64,000 bases of DNA, taken from NCBI GenBank assembly GCA_024280775.1, contig JAJRPM010000010.1:124001-188000 (forward strand), given 5' to 3'. The DNA comes from Candidatus Zixiibacteriota bacterium (lineage in GTDB: Bacteria; Zixibacteria; MSB-5A5; GN15; JACZUZ01). Below the pieces are notes generated by a model, which was not told the DNA's origin, did no database searches, and saw only the letters and a program-made list of their open reading frames with translations. Shown one piece after another: positions 31,630-41,000 of this stretch (position 1 is the stretch's first letter; the number at the start of each line of letters is the position of its first letter). The translations under genes and the position numbers were made by a program.

Positions 31630-32691
31630 TTAAAATGATGTCACCAACTGTGCAGTAAGCTTGTCGGCATCCGAACTAGTTTTCAGTGAATTCTCTATTC
31701 GTAGTTGAATGTCCTCGCTAATCGCCCTACCAACACCAACTGAAATCATGGAGGTCCATGGCCGACCGTCAGGCTGGAACGAACTAATTCTCACCGTACC
31801 AAAAGTCTTGTCATGCGTATACGTTGATTGCAAATAATATCCTTGATGACTTTCCTGAGCTATTGAGCGATTCACCGAATGGTGAACATATTCTCCGCGA
31901 AAAGAGAACGACCGCGCTATCCATTCAGCGTCCACACCCGAGAGTAGCATTTCTGTTTTCGAGGCTTCGTTGAGTCCAATTGCGAATGAGGAGCCGATTT
32001 CGAGCCCTGATAATATCGACACTGAAAATCTAGATCCAAAAGCGTCCGCCGGTGAAGTATTTATCTCGCGCTCAATATTAGAGCTGAGTCCGGTAGCTAA
32101 ATCTGCAATTCTCTCAATTACCACCGCAGAAGATTGAAATCCATTTACCCAATATGGAGACAGAGAGAGCCGCTTGTAGTCTGTTTGAATTCTAATTCCG
32201 AAATCATTCCAACCGCGCCATCCATCTCCATGAGTATCCACAAACCATGGGGCGCTCACGAGCCTTCTGTCTGGCGCCGCGTAGAAGCGATAGTCTATTC
32301 CAAAGGGCACATCGAACTGACCCACTGATAGCGATAGTGCAAGAGAGCTCGTAGCTGATTCCTGTTTCAAGTCAAAAAACATCTCTGCCGCTCCGACTTC
32401 AAATATCCCTGCTTCACTATTGTAAGCGATGGCTATTGATGCGGACGCACGATTCGAAACCTCAGTTTCCAAGTCTAATTCTGTTTGGTGTAACGTGAAA
32501 CTGTTTCTGTCTGTTTGAGCTCTATCATACTGACCTAATACGTCAAAAAAGCCAGTCAACTTCAAGTCGTGAGGTATAACAACAGTAGTAGGCGCCGAAT
32601 CATGTTCCGAAGCAACTACTGGCTGATTGAAGAATACAAATGGTGTCAGTAGCAGAGGCCTTGAGTGGCGTATAAAGGACTGAATTGACAT
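31630..32691 (-). CDS. Outer-membrane porin-like beta-barrel protein
   Basis: A 353-residue exported protein. The signal peptide (MSIQSFIRHSRPLLLTPFVFF...VVAS) is followed by alternating amphipathic strands with aromatic girdle residues (LKLTGFFDVLGQYDR, LSLSVGQFDVPFGIDYRFY, FSFRGEYVHHSV, GYYLQSTYTHD), and the last residue is Phe (AQLVTSF), typical of BAM-assembled barrels. AGGA five bases before ATG 32691 sets the start; the frame is open to 32817 but that extension lacks signal-peptide character. The FGIDYRFYAAP and WNDFGIRI patterns resemble zinc-regulated or phosphate-selective porin-like families only loosely. Substrate unknown. Confidence 0.72.
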   Translation of the reverse strand: MSIQSFIRHSRPLLLTPFVFFNQPVVASEHDSAPTTVVIPHDLKLTGFFDVLGQYDRAQTDRNSFTLHQTELDLETEVSNRASASIAIAYNSEAGIFEVGAAEMFFDLKQESATSSLALSLSVGQFDVPFGIDYRFYAAPDRRLVSAPWFVDTHGDGWRGWNDFGIRIQTDYKRLSLSPYWVNGFQSSAVVIERIADLATGLSSNIEREINTSPADAFGSRFSVSILSGLEIGSSFAIGLNEASKTEMLLSGVDAEWIARSFSFRGEYVHHSVNRSIAQESHQGYYLQSTYTHDKTFGTVRISSFQPDGRPWTSMISVGVGRAISEDIQLRIENSLKTSSDADKLTAQLVTSF

Positions 32692-32975
32692 ACTTTTCCT
32701 GATGCGTTCGAGTTTTAGGCAATGGCTAAGTCCAGTACTTGAGTTATCGCTCAAGGATATTCTTTCTTTAGGGATCAGGTTGTACCTCGTTCGCACATAA
32801 TCTCTGACAAAACTCAAACGAGACCTTTCAGCGCCCCTTATGAAACGATTTTCCGGAGGTTACATCGCGCAAAACCACAATCCTTGCAGTTCTATGCGTT
32901 TTTTGTATCTTTCATCAGGAGACTCACTGGCTCCACAAAGCCGACATTTAATCAACATTGGGGACTATAAGAACG

Positions 32976-34679
32976 ATGTTCAAACTGCTTGCCACCGATG
33001 GAGCGCGCACATATTCATGGGAATTACCCACAGGAGACCATGACCTAGGACGAGGCAAGGATTGTGACTTCGTAATTGCCAACAAGACGATTTCTCGTCG
33101 TCACGCAACAATACAGGTAGTGGAGGATGAATCGTTCATATATGTTGAGGACCTCGGTAGTCACAACGGCATATCAATAAATGGACAACGAATCACCGGC
33201 AAGGAAATAGTCAAACCCGGAGATGAGTTCATGTTCGGTGAGGTGGAATGTAAGCTCATTCCAGCCAATGGAATTGAAGTATTCCCCACCAGAACAAATC
33301 CAACCGCCTCAGTCGGCGCGACAACAATTCTAGCGGACTTTGATCCTGAGAAATCTGTAGTGCTCTCAATCAATGAGGCTCTCGCCCCCTTACCCAAACG
33401 TGCCGCCGACCTTCCAGATTTGCTTCCAACCCTATTCGAGCTAGCCCGCAAACTTTCGTCACCTGAAACTCAGGATATGATGCTTGAAACTTCGCTGGAG
33501 CTTATCACCCGTGTTATCCCATCTGAAAGAGCCGCTGTCCTATTGCGACCCAAAGCTTCAGAAGACTCCGAGTCCGACCCGGAAAGCAGTGAAGTGTATA
33601 CAGCCGCTCTAAGAGTAACCTCTGGTAAAGACCCCGGCGCTTTTCATATTTCGCGGCGGATTGTGGAGAGCATCTTCAGAGATAAGACCGCCGTGCTGAT
33701 TGGCAACGTTAAAGATGATCCTCGCTTCGCACAGCAGGAATCCCTAATTAGCTCAAATATTGCCTCAGCAATGGCCGCCCCTCTCTTTGACGAGGGCAAG
33801 GCGCTGGGGATTCTCTATGTGGACACCACAAATCTGCTTCATAGTTATAGTAATGAACATCTACGTCTTCTAGCTACCTTCGGCAACATCATCGCTGCAA
33901 AAATGCTGAACAACGCCCTTCTGCTAGAGAGACAGCTCAAAGAAACTATGGAAGCTGAGATGCATCGCGCTGAAACAATTCAGCGCAATCTGCTGACGAC
34001 CAAATTCCCACAGCCGGATCATTGCGAGATTCATCCCTTCCTCCAACCCTCTCGGCAAGTTGGTGGTGACCTCTATGATATTTCACTCCTGCCTGACGGG
34101 CGCCTATTCTTCATGGTTGCCGACGTCAGCGGTAAAGGAATTGGCGCCGCGCTACTAATGACCAGCATTCTTACCTCATTTAGAGTGCTAAAGACCGCCG
34201 GAGAGTTCAACCTTCTCGATACCGTAACCCGGGTCTCACGTCAGCTATACGCCGCAAGCGACCCGATTGATTTCGCCACCCTGTTTGCCGGAACTATCTC
34301 TGCCGACGGCAAATCCATAACCTTTGTAAATGCCGGTCACAACCCTCCTTATGTGCTACGAACCAATGGAACGATTGAGGAACTCCCGGCGTCAGGCACC
34401 ATGATAGGCGCCTTCGATTTTAGCGCTTGGGAAGAGCAAACAATTGAGTTTCATCCCGGCGACTTACTTATTATCTTCACCGACGGAGTTACCGAAGCGG
34501 AAGATTCTACAGAAGAACAATATAGTGAAGAGCGTCTTATTGAGGACCTCAAAGCTTGCGCTACGTGCAGCCCGGCAGAAATCACAGAAACCATACTCGA
34601 TCGCCTCCGTATATTTGTAGGAGAGGCTCCCCAGTCAGATGACATTACAACTCTCGTCATAAAGAGCAAGAATAGGTAG
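32976..34679 (+). CDS. FHA-GAF-SpoIIE phosphatase (RsbU-like PP2C)
   Basis: A 567-residue cytosolic signalling protein. An N-terminal FHA domain binds phosphothreonine (LGRGKDCDFVI, ISRRHATI, DLGSHNGISING; about 20-95). A GAF domain follows (about 150-310; AAPLFDEGKALGILYVDTTN), then a coiled linker and a PP2C/SpoIIE phosphatase (about 330-567) with metal-binding QVGGDLYD, VADVSGKGIGAALL, IFTDGVTEAED and SDDITTLVI. The ATG at 32976 is preferred over the TTG at 32958. It sits 13 bases upstream of a Ser/Thr kinase, so kinase and phosphatase are co-expressed and may act on shared targets. No STAS anti-anti-sigma or anti-sigma gene is in the window. Confidence 0.92.
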   Translation: MFKLLATDGARTYSWELPTGDHDLGRGKDCDFVIANKTISRRHATIQVVEDESFIYVEDLGSHNGISINGQRITGKEIVKPGDEFMFGEVECKLIPANGIEVFPTRTNPTASVGATTILADFDPEKSVVLSINEALAPLPKRAADLPDLLPTLFELARKLSSPETQDMMLETSLELITRVIPSERAAVLLRPKASEDSESDPESSEVYTAALRVTSGKDPGAFHISRRIVESIFRDKTAVLIGNVKDDPRFAQQESLISSNIASAMAAPLFDEGKALGILYVDTTNLLHSYSNEHLRLLATFGNIIAAKMLNNALLLERQLKETMEAEMHRAETIQRNLLTTKFPQPDHCEIHPFLQPSRQVGGDLYDISLLPDGRLFFMVADVSGKGIGAALLMTSILTSFRVLKTAGEFNLLDTVTRVSRQLYAASDPIDFATLFAGTISADGKSITFVNAGHNPPYVLRTNGTIEELPASGTMIGAFDFSAWEEQTIEFHPGDLLIIFTDGVTEAEDSTEEQYSEERLIEDLKACATCSPAEITETILDRLRIFVGEAPQSDDITTLVIKSKNR

Positions 34680-34692
34680 AGAGAAAAAATAG

Positions 34693-37600
34693 ATGATTAG
34701 TTCAGGGCAAAACATAGACCATTTCAAGATTCTCGAAAAACTCGGATCCGGGGGCATGGGCGATGTATTTCTCGCCGAAGACACCAAACTAGGTCGCAAA
34801 GTCGCCCTAAAATTTCTTTCCAGTGACTTTTTCACTGACTCCGAACGGCTAGGCCGCTTCCAGCGCGAAGCCAAAACCGCAGCTCAAATCTCTCATCCCA
34901 ATGTCACTGCCATCTATGATTTGGGAACCTTCAAATCTCCCGATTCAGATGAAGAGTCTCTATACATCGTAATGGAGCATGTCAGCGGCGAATCCCTAAA
35001 ACACCGGCTAGCAAACTCAAAGACAGACCTCTCAGAAATTCTTCGTATGGCGGAGAAAATAGGTTCAGGACTCTCTGCCGCCCACAAATTAGGAATAGTT
35101 CATCGCGATATTAAAGCCGACAACATTCTAATCAATGAAGATGGCGAACCCAAAATACTTGACTTCGGACTGGCAAAATTCGCCGACGGAGCCATACTGC
35201 AAGACTCCAACAAGCCTGAGAGCAACATCGATGACGAAGACGGCGATACAATTTCTCGCGAACTAACCCAGGCCGGGAAAATCGTAGGCACTGTAACCTA
35301 TATGTCTCCGGAACAGGCTCGCGGTGAGGAAATCGACACACGTTCAGATATTTTTTCATTCGGTGTCTTACTATACCGCATGGCCGCCGGAGAATTCCCT
35401 TTCACCGGCCCGACCCAAGTTTCAACTCTCGCAAAAATACTGGAAGCAACCCAGGATCCTCCAAGCGCCAAAAACAACGCCATCCCCCCAGAACTTGAAC
35501 GGATAATTACTAAATGTCTTCAGAAATCCCCGGCGGATAGATATCAGAACACTCGGGATTTGGTCCTTGACCTGCGTAGTCTGCGCAAGCAATTTGACAG
35601 TGGCGTCAGTGACAGTATTTCGTCGATAAGTTCACCTTCCATGGCGCCCGTAAAGACATCATCGTCCAAAACCAAAGTGATTGGCTTCGGAGCAATAGCT
35701 GTCCTAGCCCTGATAGCTACCTATGTGTTCTCACCATTTGGATCCGATACTGAGGGCTCAGGTCAACAGGTTATAGCGGCCGAAAATAGCATTGCGATAC
35801 TCGATTTTGCCAACAAAACCAACGACCCGGATCTGCAATGGCTTGAATCCGGCCTGCCGGAAATACTGCTAACCGACTTGACAGAAAACCAAGCCCTAAG
35901 TGTCATATCAAGAGGTCGAATACTAGACCACTTAAAAGCCAAAAGTAACTCTGCCGCCTCCAATGTATCAGCGGAGGAAATGCGTGAGGCCTGCGCGGCT
36001 ATCGGCGCGGCATCGATTATCTCTGGTTCCTACTACAAGATTGGCGATAAGATTCGAATCGATGCTCGCTTTGAAGAAACCTCATCAGGTGAAGTGATTT
36101 GGAGCGAAAAAGTAATAGGTGAAGACCTCTTCTCACTCGTTGATAGCCTAACCGACAAAATTGTCCAATCTCTAAACGTCGCCGACCTGGCGCCCAGCGA
36201 TCAACAGATTGCCGATGTGATGACATCGTCACCTCAAGCATACCGCCTTTATCTTGAAGGTGTCGAATTAATGCTCTCCGAAAGAAGTAAAGAAGCCCAG
36301 AACCTTTTTCAACAGGCTATTGAAATAGACTCTTCATTCGGGATGGCCTACTTGCGCTTGGGGATGTCCCACATTTTCTCCGGGCACAATCAAAAAGGCC
36401 AGGAGATTCTGCAGAAGGCGAAAACTTTCGAAAATAAGCTACCTGTGCGTAGCAGAAGCTTGTTGGATGCTTATGTTGATCTATTCCTAACCCAAAACTA
36501 TGTGGATGGATTCACAAAAATGGCGTCGTATGTGAAGAACTATCCTACCGACAAGGAAGCGCGCACATTCTACGGATCCATCCTCACCTTGACCCAGCAG
36601 GACACGGCCGTCGCATTCGCCCAATTCGACACGGCTCTCGCGCAAGACCCAACCTATCAATTCGCGCTCTCGACTTATGGAGCAACTCTACTAAAATACG
36701 ATAATTTCGAACGAGCCATGAATGTGTTTGAGCAGCTCCTGCGCTTTCATCCCGAATCTCCCGCCGCTTATTCAAACCTGACTGCCATCCATATTTCCCA
36801 AGGCAATTTGGACAAAGCCATCGAGATGACCGACCAGTTGAGAACTCGTTTCCCCGAACGCAGATCGGCGCTTTCTACAATGGTGAACCTGCATTTGCGA
36901 CTACGCCAGTTCGACAGCGCCGCGTACTACTCAGAACTATACAAAGCGTTTGACACAACTGACCATTTTGCGATGATAAGCTACTACCGCTACCAGGGAA
37001 ATCTTGCAACATGGAAAGGCCAATTCAAGGGGGCAATCAAAGCTATTCGAGGGCGAATAAAAGAAGCGACGCTTTCAGACGATAACCAACAGTTATCGAG
37101 TAGCTACCGCGCCTTAGCGTTAACTTTCTTTGTCATTGGTCAAAAAGACAGCGCCTTAGCTTATGCAGATGTGGCATTTGATCTAACGCCATCGGTATTC
37201 AACGCCATCAGTTACCCCTTGACTGTCATTTCGTTTGACCACAGTAAAGGCATGGAATTGAAGAGCGTCTTTGACAGCCTCGCAACTGTCTTTCAATCTC
37301 AGGTTCCCCAAGGAATGTGGTCATTGGTTGAGGCCCTGCGAAATATCTATACCGGAGCCTATAACTATGACACCTCACTTGCCCTCAGCGGCCTGGAGTC
37401 GATCTGTGAAAACCCCAAGTATGTCGGTGGCGGAAATCTGCGTGAGCTGGCGGAAATGCAGATGCATTACGGGCGGTTCGAAGAAGCGCTGAAAAATATC
37501 GAGACCGCAACTTCCGACAAATTTGTCTCTACCGGCGGCTACAGCACATTGAACCTGCTCTACATAAAGGGCCGCGCACACCAAGGACTCAGGCAAAACG

Positions 37601-37710
37601 ACCAAGCAGTTGAAGCATACAAAGAAATGCTAACGTATTGGGGCGCACCCGATATAGAAATCAAGATTATTAGGGAAGCGAAGGACCGATTGGCAAGACT
37701 TACATCCTAA
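34693..37710 (+). CDS. Membrane Ser/Thr protein kinase with TolB-like and TPR sensor region
   Basis: A 1005-residue Hanks-type kinase. The kinase domain (about 10-300) has the Gly loop GSGGMGDVF, Lys40, HRDIKADN (Asp139), DFG (157-159) and MSPEQARG, with an acidic insert in the activation segment. One TM helix (about 331-347, VIGFGAIAVLALIATYVF) separates it from a periplasmic part: a FlgO/TolB-like nucleoside-binding-type domain (NSIAILDFANKT...ARFEETSSGEVIWSE) and TPRs to the end. This layout is common in Acidobacteria and FCB genomes. It is co-transcribed with the FHA phosphatase gene; the phosphatase's FHA could dock to the autophosphorylated kinase (inference). Confidence 0.93.
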   Translation: MISSGQNIDHFKILEKLGSGGMGDVFLAEDTKLGRKVALKFLSSDFFTDSERLGRFQREAKTAAQISHPNVTAIYDLGTFKSPDSDEESLYIVMEHVSGESLKHRLANSKTDLSEILRMAEKIGSGLSAAHKLGIVHRDIKADNILINEDGEPKILDFGLAKFADGAILQDSNKPESNIDDEDGDTISRELTQAGKIVGTVTYMSPEQARGEEIDTRSDIFSFGVLLYRMAAGEFPFTGPTQVSTLAKILEATQDPPSAKNNAIPPELERIITKCLQKSPADRYQNTRDLVLDLRSLRKQFDSGVSDSISSISSPSMAPVKTSSSKTKVIGFGAIAVLALIATYVFSPFGSDTEGSGQQVIAAENSIAILDFANKTNDPDLQWLESGLPEILLTDLTENQALSVISRGRILDHLKAKSNSAASNVSAEEMREACAAIGAASIISGSYYKIGDKIRIDARFEETSSGEVIWSEKVIGEDLFSLVDSLTDKIVQSLNVADLAPSDQQIADVMTSSPQAYRLYLEGVELMLSERSKEAQNLFQQAIEIDSSFGMAYLRLGMSHIFSGHNQKGQEILQKAKTFENKLPVRSRSLLDAYVDLFLTQNYVDGFTKMASYVKNYPTDKEARTFYGSILTLTQQDTAVAFAQFDTALAQDPTYQFALSTYGATLLKYDNFERAMNVFEQLLRFHPESPAAYSNLTAIHISQGNLDKAIEMTDQLRTRFPERRSALSTMVNLHLRLRQFDSAAYYSELYKAFDTTDHFAMISYYRYQGNLATWKGQFKGAIKAIRGRIKEATLSDDNQQLSSSYRALALTFFVIGQKDSALAYADVAFDLTPSVFNAISYPLTVISFDHSKGMELKSVFDSLATVFQSQVPQGMWSLVEALRNIYTGAYNYDTSLALSGLESICENPKYVGGGNLRELAEMQMHYGRFEEALKNIETATSDKFVSTGGYSTLNLLYIKGRAHQGLRQNDQAVEAYKEMLTYWGAPDIEIKIIREAKDRLARLTS

Positions 37711-38088: not shown

Positions 38089-41000
38089 ATGAACCACAAA
38101 AGTGTCCTGTCAAAGGATTTGTCTGGAGCGCGAGCTACAGGAGTTCTCATGTTATTTGCAGCGTTGCTGCTGATGACATTCTCACCCAACGCATCAGCGG
38201 GTGACCTTGAACACCGAATCAACTCGCAGAAACTAAAACTTGCTCGCTACACACAACGCCTGGCGTTGCCCAGCGGATTAGAGGACCTGAACAGCCAGAC
38301 ATCCTCAAACAGCAATGATGCCGGCCAATATATGGGCGCATCCTCAAGGTTTTCTAACCTGACCTGCGTTTCAGGGTCAATTGACCTCGTCCGAGGCATA
38401 ACCGTAGGTTGCACAACTTATGATTATCAAAAAAACAACTCCATGAATCGCCAAATAGGCATCACAGAGCCATCACACATTGTCTACTTCACATGGATGA
38501 ACAAACTCAACGCCACTTTTGGCGGCGCTAGAAACGTAGCTTCTGACGCATGGGATCCAGGAGCAGGAAGTTTGAGTGATGGAACCGGCGGTGTTGATGT
38601 GAGCGCCAATGTTGACGGTACGACAGGTCGTTCAGGATTCGTTACCATGGATGTGACATCATCTGAATTAGCGGCCAACGCACACCATTGGAATGCGCCT
38701 GCAGGAGCCGGCACACGACCGCATGCTTTTCTCAACAACACGCCCAGCTTGAGCGATTTCGCTTCAGCTACAGCAATTCCAGACGCAATTTGGACTCCTT
38801 TTCTAACAGGAGACGCAACTCTCTATTTATGGCCAGCTATTGCGCATGGCACAGACGGAGTCAATGATGTAACTCACCTTTTGATTCATTCAACCCGCAC
38901 CGATGGCGACGGTGATGTAGTTTATCTAAGAAAAGTCGGGTCCGGGCTCGGTGGAACCTGGTCATCGGCGTTTTCCGTTGGCCTGGGTGGTTTCAATACC
39001 AGTCCTGTAATCACCGCATCGAGAAACTCAGCAAATGTTGCAATCGCCGCTTCCTTTGCAAGAGGAGACGGAACTAAGTTCGGAGCGCCAATTTCGCGTT
39101 ATGACACTTTTCTCTCCGGTCAAATTGACAATGACATGTACTATATGACATCCGCCGACGGGGGAGCGACATGGGGACCATTGACCAACGTTACCCAAAA
39201 TCAATTCCCGGCAGTTGATAGCATAGGTTTCTATCCTCATGCAAAACTGACCGCACTCTGGGATTCTGCAGAAAATTTGCACATAGTCTGGAATGCCGGA
39301 TTCAACGACGCCACCGGATTTGTTTTGCAACGCTCTCGCCTATTCCATTATGATATCGTCAGTGATGCTATTACCACTGTCTATGACGCAAGCTGGGATC
39401 CGACTCGTTGTACAGCCGGTGTGTTTAATCTAAACACTTCCAATCCACAGCTCAGTGAGTGTAACTCCAAACTATATGTCACTTTCTCTCAATTCAATGA
39501 CATTCCTAACGGTGTCGAAGATGACTGCTCCGAACGTGGGTTCGCCGCTGGCGCAACAGACATACTTGGAGCCGCCAACGCAGAAATCTTTGTCTCGGTT
39601 TCAGACAACAATGGACTCTCATGGGACAGACCGCGTAACTTGACCAGCACCTACACTCCTAATTGTGACACCATCCCCGGTGGTCTTCAGCCGGATTGTG
39701 ACTCTGATGCCTGGCACACTACCACACGTTACGGTGTAGACGCCGCCTTTGATGACTTTGACGGTATTCCCAACTTGACGGCAAATATTGACGCCGCCTA
39801 TATCGCCGATAGTTTCCTTTTTGTTCAGTACATCAATGACGCTGACCCGGGTGGAGCTGTTCGACCTGAAGGTGGCTGGACACTGAATCCGGTTCGGGTC
39901 TTCCGTTTCGGTTGCGTGGAGCCGATTCTTGAAGCTGTCCTGGGTTCGTCATTACAAAGTGGACAGGCCATTTCTGACCCGGCATTTGCGCTTCCAGGAC
40001 AAACGCAGATTCTGCCCTGGAGTCTCGTGAACTTTGGAAACAAGGACCTGACCTATAGCCTTACAGTAATCGATCAGAATCCGCCAAATAACCTGCAAGT
40101 CAATCCAACTTCGGGTAACATTCTTACTGGTGTTTCACAAATTGACACTCTGGATGTAATCTTGAATGCCTCTTTGGAAACTACAGTTCAGAGCGCATCA
40201 GCGACAATTATTGCAACAGGTAACTTCGTTTCATCACCGGATACTTTCTTTGTCAGCTACACTATTGGTGATGTAGAACTGCTCACCTTTGATTCGTTGA
40301 ACAACTGCCTGGTCTTCAGCAACAACGGTAACATCGGCGCAGAGAACAATGCCCGACCTACAGTTGCCGGCAATGGCAATGGTATGTTGAACATGGATTT
40401 CGTCGGTGACATTGCCGAATGTGACACAACTGGTAATGCCAATAGTTACCTCTTCGATGGTTCCCCGGTTATTTCATACAATGCCGGACAAGTAGTTTCA
40501 GGTATGTTTGAATTCAACATTGTCGATACGTTCCAATTCAGACCTTTGACAATGCCAACCACCGACAACAATCCCGCTGGCGACCCGGATTACCTACATG
40601 CGAACTCCGGTAACTTCACCACACAGGACTCAACAATCGGCCTGACAGTCGACTATTGGACTCCTGTTCCGGCGATTGCACCACCTGGATCGTGGAAAGT
40701 TGTAATCGGACGCGTCTGTTACTACAATCTGACCTCTACTCCAATTGATAGCGTCTTCTGCGCCTTCGCCTGGGACTGGGATGTGCCGTCGGACTCTGGT
40801 TCACGAAACACCTCAACCTTTGACCCCGCAAGAGCCTTGATCTACCAACAAGGAGCTGAATTCGGTCAAGACACTGGTAACACAGCATGTCAACCCAATG
40901 ACCAAAGATTCGCTGGTACCATCTATGTACCGCCATCAGATGTAAGTCTGCCAAGCTACACTGACTTAGGCTCCGGCATAATGGGCGTTGGGTTCCAGGG

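Follow-up and report, generated by a model that had tools for sequence, protein, structure and literature searches.

The locus described here, a two-gene Ser/Thr signaling unit in a 64,000-nucleotide stretch of a Candidatus Zixiibacteriota genome (positions 124,001 to 188,000 of contig JAJRPM010000010.1, assembly GCA_024280775.1; this whole stretch is called the window below), encodes an FHA-GAF-SpoIIE-type phosphatase and, directly after it, a transmembrane Hanks-type kinase with tetratricopeptide repeats (TPRs), and it can be compared with several described systems. Plant KAPP (kinase-associated protein phosphatase) carries a membrane anchor and is not known to contain a GAF domain; Ding et al. 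2007 reportedly named its FHA domain, together with the phosphopeptides of that domain, in their title. FLS2 is among the interaction partners of KAPP, as are several unrelated receptor kinases (PMC4975489, excerpt). Our locus resembles KAPP in that FHA and PP2C are united in one protein in the company of a receptor kinase; it differs in that KAPP is eukaryotic, whereas the phosphatase studied here belongs to the SpoIIE subfamily, is soluble, bears a GAF domain and shares an operon with the kinase. In bacterial Stk/Stp systems, the phosphatases are of the PP2C_2 type and are not known to carry an FHA domain. The kinase and phosphatase of such systems often share one operon, according to a portion of PMC6213207. 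Operons of this kind (PknB-PstP, PrkC-PrpC) likewise place a membrane Hanks kinase beside a PPM phosphatase, but here the phosphatase is SpoIIE-type with FHA and GAF domains, and the kinase carries TPRs and does not reach the cut-off of the PASTA-kinase model (NCBIfam NF033483, 303.6 bits versus a cut-off of 450). RsbU, SpoIIE and RsbP share with our phosphatase the catalytic family and an N-terminal sensor with a predicted helical linker after it, and SpoIIE-type phosphatases are described in part of PMC12143880 as activated via dimerizing helical linkers of the RsbU type; in contrast to these systems, no STAS or anti-sigma gene adjoins the phosphatase here. Fusions of FHA to a SpoIIE phosphatase have also been met elsewhere, in sce0876 of Sorangium (reported in a section of PMC2887360) as well as in Acidobacteriota (loci L103-L112) and others. 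Outside the phylum, however, a kinase accompanies them in only 3 of 20 stretches (versus 1 of 40 stretches with an FHA-less SpoIIE gene). Villarino et al. 2005 reportedly announced an FHA protein on a kinase activation loop in their title. The binding of an FHA protein to the phosphorylated activation loop of a kinase is described for PknQ and MupFHA (PMC4238996, excerpt), and PDB entry 6i2p contains PknB with the FHA protein GarA; these pairs provide a precedent for contact between an FHA domain and a phosphorylated kinase loop, although the FHA protein there is not a phosphatase.

On balance, the locus probably unites a receptor kinase with an eraser that reaches the phosphothreonine of Hanks kinases via its FHA domain, a way of working that would be like that of KAPP; the likeness extends to the working only, and no common origin is claimed. 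The evidence counted for this reading comprises the phylum-wide adjacency of the two genes, their overlapping frames, the near absence of STAS genes, the conserved residues and the replacement of the kinase by other kinases. The kinase-phosphatase pair is old. A phosphatase orthologue (E <= 1e-70) was found in 76 of 132 Zixiibacteriota genomes, and in the set of 78 formed by adding two fragmentary cases, the kinase lies directly downstream in 61 (among them G038 and G053, with broken kinase frames, and G047, with a contig break, all three scored as kinase-bearing by hand); the frames overlap or lie no more than 4 nt apart in 52 of the 59 pairs measured. Since there are 13 kinase-domain matches in the 3.17 Mb of the window's genome, adjacency in 61 of 78 genomes indicates pairing beyond chance. 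The first-pass annotation had named conservation of the pair as the point to check and its splitting in relatives as the outcome that would speak against it; the adjacent two-gene unit held up, and splitting was found in a weak form, with no kinase beside the phosphatase in the other 17 genomes. We also considered 60 relatives (own genome included), for which phosphatase orthologues were chosen by eye among the matches listed, contig-edge fragments included, and a kinase counted as an orthologue if it reached E <= 5.4e-83, a contig-edge fragment in G052 being admitted as well. Among the matches listed, 50 of these genomes have the phosphatase and 41 the kinase (40 both, 10 the phosphatase only, 1 the kinase only and 9 neither), and the two genes are adjacent on one contig in 38 of the 40 genomes with both and apparently adjacent across assembly breaks in the other two. 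In G049, the sole genome with a kinase and no phosphatase, the contig ends inside the kinase gene. On deeper branches, a diverged kinase occupies the kinase position (G063, G066 and G114) or lies 2 kb downstream (G062).

Two apparent separations of the pair were considered as true splits. That in G047 was rejected, as the kinase contig opens with the end of a phosphatase gene and thus reflects a contig break; that in G044 is disfavored, since the two kinase frames are identical over 105 or more consecutive residues and are broken by unread letters, which points to, but does not prove, a scaffold artefact. Plasmid transfer as the cause of the spread was likewise rejected, as no plasmid record has a single place covering 80% of the protein. 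Near the kinase, a family of proteins of about 410 amino acids occurs in 11 loci (L033, L035, L055, L067, L069 and others, downstream); its member in G012 is a major facilitator superfamily (MFS) transporter.

The coordinates and Pfam matches (Table 1) confirm the initial description of an FHA-GAF-PP2C phosphatase gene lying 13 bp ahead of the kinase gene, and PF13672 (PP2C_2) is absent from the families listed for the phosphatase at E <= 1. The FHA residues R26, S40, H43 and N64, which we take to be those that bind phosphothreonine, are conserved in the 46 aligned orthologues, bar one that lacks its N terminus at a contig edge. The domain matches the FHA domain of CT664 with a target TM-score of 0.85 (Foldseek), and its match to TagH, the FHA protein of the type VI secretion system (T6SS), remains below the cut-off (33.9 versus 120.25 bits; T6SS genes were not searched for). 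At 12 checked positions of the phosphatase domain (including D365, D383, D503, D555 and D556), conservation extends to 45 of 46 orthologues, the other being truncated where its contig stops, and the metal-binding acids are present and conserved among the aligned orthologues. The kinase is of the RD class; every one of the 34 aligned orthologues has HRD (137-139) and K141, and DFG (157-159) is complete in 33 of them. Its single strongly hydrophobic 19-mer (residues 329-347) is preceded by lysines and followed by acidic residues, from which the TPR part is predicted to be periplasmic; of the transmembrane kinase with periplasmic TPRs that had been proposed, the single helix (by hydropathy) and the TPR matches from residue 517 are therefore borne out, and the location has the standing of a prediction. 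The CsgG-like domain ahead of the TPRs is a weak addition to that initial description. A PDB fold search with the extracytoplasmic part returned generic TPR matches only.

The acidic insert that had been noticed in the activation segment is real, the segment being 20 residues longer than that of PknB in the alignment. The stretch compared is 26 residues long, 9 of them Asp or Glu, in the window's kinase and in that of the genus mate, versus 16 to 19 residues with 2 to 8 Asp or Glu in the 32 other full-length orthologues; a Thr- and acid-rich segment is thus a trait of the family, and its long acidic form is that of this genus. Within the segment, T192 and T200 are invariant, whereas at the position of T186 the 34 orthologues carry Thr (31) or Ser (3). 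T192 aligns with the TQ of the PknB activation loop, presumably a phosphorylation site in that kinase.

If the kinase and its eraser work as we favor, the following steps can be proposed: (i) the kinase would use its CsgG-like/TPR part as a sensor for something that lies beyond the inner membrane; (ii) it would autophosphorylate and phosphorylate cytoplasmic targets on Thr, as its domains suggest; (iii) the FHA domain would steer the co-transcribed phosphatase to phosphothreonine that Hanks kinases produce, above all the adjoining one (on itself or on its substrates); (iv) the phosphatase would remove the phosphate at the place bound by the FHA domain; and (v) the GAF domain and the helical linker would set the activity of the phosphatase, presumably by dimerization as in RsbU. 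We infer that products of Hanks kinases, and not a STAS protein, are what the phosphatase acts on, with FHA targeting; docking of the FHA domain on the activation loop of the kinase, as the first-pass annotation suggested, is a plausible prediction. Of the structure models, which are of monomers and were built from 20 and 14 sequences, that of the phosphatase places a long helix between its GAF and catalytic domains, and docking on a dimeric kinase could thereby switch the phosphatase on. We put forward tentatively, as a more specific and rather doubtful version, a bacterial counterpart of KAPP with product-gated feedback, in which the FHA domain would bind the autophosphorylated activation loop of a dimeric kinase, either at T192 or at its acidic Thr segment, and the PPM domains of two docked phosphatase chains would be brought together via the GAF-linker and switched on; activation of the kinase would then recruit and activate its own eraser.

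The strongest rival to this reading is an intramolecular switch, in which the kinase would phosphorylate a Thr of the FHA-GAF linker and the protein's own FHA domain would bind it, in the manner of DgcB or GarA/OdhI, opening or shutting the phosphatase, with the FHA domain acting as a self-sensor and not as a docking device. In its favor, the linker region is predicted to be disordered (with low model confidence) and has a Thr within the 8 residues preceding L119 in 61 of 72 orthologues, versus 37% for any 8-mer; DgcB of Bdellovibrio, as described in an excerpt of PMC6733907, offers a precedent. Disordered linkers, however, are Ser/Thr-rich anyway, a bias to which the 8-mer control is blind, and the exact Thr position drifts, that of T117 being Thr in 35 of the 72 orthologues. 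The FHA domain and the linker are, moreover, retained after loss of the kinase, though other kinases could serve. On this evidence we judge the self-switch unlikely.

Two groups of observations weigh against the eraser reading, the first of which concerns the fate of the kinase gene: (i) the phosphatase occurs without an adjoining kinase in 17 of 78 genomes; (ii) G004, G012, G018 and G031 retain parts of the ends of a kinase gene after internal deletion; and (iii) the FHA domain remains constrained after the kinase is lost, the comparison of G012 with its sister G024 giving a nonsynonymous divergence (dN) of 0.045 and a synonymous divergence (dS) of 0.36, i.e., purifying selection. On a FastTree phosphatase tree, from which six fragmentary rows were omitted, the kinase-less state corresponds to about 11 changes; the genomes are mostly drafts, and some of the absences may be assembly faults. 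All 10 kinase-less genomes inspected have kept intact FHA and catalytic residues, and the FHA profile scores 88 to 127 bits in the other seven. The dependence thus looks one-sided, the kinase being nearly always accompanied by the phosphatase and the phosphatase often being without the kinase. It follows that the FHA domain does not serve solely for docking on the adjoining kinase and must have further ligands, e.g., the products of other Hanks kinases or those kinases themselves. Two genomes, G009 and G020, have a different type of Pkinase gene upstream of the phosphatase, 13 and 70 nt away, respectively; the identity between these two kinases is 53%, that to the kinase domain in the window is about 40%, and the kinase of G009 carries PD40 propeller repeats. 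Survival of the phosphatase beyond so many losses of the kinase would also fit genes that are conserved neighbors sharing a promoter and a physiological role with no direct biochemical contact. Against this stand the overlap of the stop codon with the next start codon in the majority of pairs, the exchange of the partner for another kinase in two genomes and the presence of a phosphothreonine reader beside a Thr kinase, and we regard mere neighborhood as highly improbable. In loci L032, L048, L056 and L066, the kinase gene has repeatedly lost internal parts, so that one end or both ends remain beside an intact phosphatase gene.

The second group concerns partner switching: (i) the structures that match the phosphatase domain best belong to partner-switching enzymes such as SiaA, RssB and Rv1364c; (ii) G056 has a divergent STAS gene (L044:9344-9793) adjoining the phosphatase; (iii) outside the phylum, an FHA-GAF-SpoIIE gene is followed directly by HATPase and STAS genes in L111; (iv) another, in L117, has a STAS gene just upstream; and (v) a separate PP2C_2-type phosphatase on contig C11, the sole PF13672 match in the window's genome, could serve the kinases. 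L111 and L117 indicate that the FHA-GAF-SpoIIE architecture can serve partner switching and is not reserved for Hanks kinases, and, given the gene on C11, the idea that the FHA-GAF-SpoIIE protein is the genome's only Hanks-kinase phosphatase was rejected. The phosphatase could, accordingly to its subfamily and structural matches, act on a STAS anti-anti-sigma factor encoded elsewhere, with the kinase as an upstream regulator that phosphorylates it or binds it through the FHA domain, and the genome does encode four STAS proteins. Each of their genes, however, lies within 2.7 kb of a SpoIIE gene of its own, namely the four other clear ones; the fifth clear SpoIIE gene is the FHA-GAF one, and a sixth, borderline match falls inside the PP2C_2-type gene. 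Profiles of our own for STAS and HATPase recover all four of these STAS genes and matched only 1 of the 78 relatives' stretches, that of G056. The absence of a STAS or anti-sigma partner asserted at the outset is upheld, no STAS gene being found on the window's contig, and a STAS gene constantly adjoining the orthologues was not encountered; in nine relatives with the phosphatase, the nearest STAS gene on the same contig, among the matches listed, is at least about 92 kb away. Among 60 loci outside the phylum, STAS or HATPase genes accompany 3 of 20 FHA-SpoIIE genes versus 18 of 40 FHA-less ones (Fisher p 0.025, for stretches of unequal length from related genomes). Partner switching of this kind seems to us improbable, slightly more so than the self-switch. 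An anti-sigma-like kinase and a phosphatase are joined in one chain at L203:3979-6871, where HATPase and SpoIIE are fused in a protein of 658 amino acids beside a STAS gene. In an acidobacterial genome (L161:6560-9883), a SpoIIE protein with no detected FHA domain is followed by a 714-amino-acid kinase that matches the TPR part.

Taken as a whole, the earlier interpretation of the locus is partly supported. Kinase-phosphatase operons and the FHA-SpoIIE fusion were already known; what is new is the stable, phylum-wide pairing, in the absence of STAS neighbors, of a TPR receptor kinase and a SpoIIE-type phosphatase that bears an FHA domain, for which we found no published report in the open-access literature. 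SpoIIE-like phosphatases are usually filed under partner switching of sigma factors, and the myxobacterial phosphatome paper, in the sections of PMC2887360 available, left it unclear whether they oppose eukaryotic-like (Hanks) kinases. The present locus offers a clean case, in which a SpoIIE-type phosphatase with its own phosphothreonine reader and no STAS gene nearby overlaps in frame with a receptor kinase in most genomes of the phylum. Should the FHA domain indeed dock on the kinase, receptor kinases would be shut off by one and the same solution in plants and in bacteria.

Table 1. Features of the phosphatase-kinase locus (positions in the window)
Feature	Position	Strand	Details
FHA-GAF-SpoIIE-type PPM phosphatase gene	32976..34679	+	ATG 32976, stop end 34679; 567 amino acids
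FHA domain, residues 24-88	33045..33239	+	Pfam PF00498, 64.5 bits, 1.2e-17; R26, S40, H43, N64
FHA-GAF linker, Thr-rich stretch ahead of L-[SA]-[DE]-x-[DE]-P motif	33267..33353	+	Possible self-ligand
GAF domain, residues 169-308	33480..33899	+	PF01590, 44.5 bits, 2.7e-11
Long helix from GAF to phosphatase, residues 293-339 (47 residues)	33852..33992	+	Monomer structure model; position of RsbU-type linker
SpoIIE-type PPM phosphatase domain, residues 373-563	34092..34664	+	PF07228, 150.3 bits (cut-off 25), 7.9e-44
Intergenic gap, phosphatase to kinase	34680..34692	+	13 bp
Transmembrane Hanks-type Ser/Thr kinase gene	34693..37710	+	ATG 34693, stop end 37710; 1005 amino acids
Kinase domain, residues 12-285	34726..35547	+	Pkinase PF00069, 167.5 bits, 5.1e-49
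Acidic insert of activation segment, residues 171-190	35203..35262	+	Invariant T192 and T200 come after
Predicted transmembrane helix, residues 329-347	35677..35733	+	Hydropathy; found in 34/34 aligned orthologues
CsgG/TolB-N-like domain, residues 361-510, predicted periplasmic	35773..36222	+	Weak Pfam CsgG, E 0.02 (below cut-off); alpha/beta fold in model
TPR superhelix from residue 517, predicted periplasmic	36241..37707	+	Pfam TPR models; model pLDDT 85.6; PDB TPR matches

The two genes can be regarded as a unit of their own, since the upstream neighbor (31630-32817) lies on the opposite strand and the downstream neighbor starts at 38089, 378 bp on. Scans for repeats and for promoters and terminators gave counts near those of shuffled sequences. 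Elsewhere in the window's genome, a tandem-FHA protein, a calcineurin-like phosphoesterase and a CHASE2 receptor kinase are encoded in a row (L200:5461-9830, C7:291460-295829); this FHA gene is the only other one found in the genome and likewise stands beside a Hanks kinase. The same genome harbors five tandem Hanks kinase genes (L205:3367-16573, C17:91366-104572), and the one of them that was scanned has PD40 propeller repeats.

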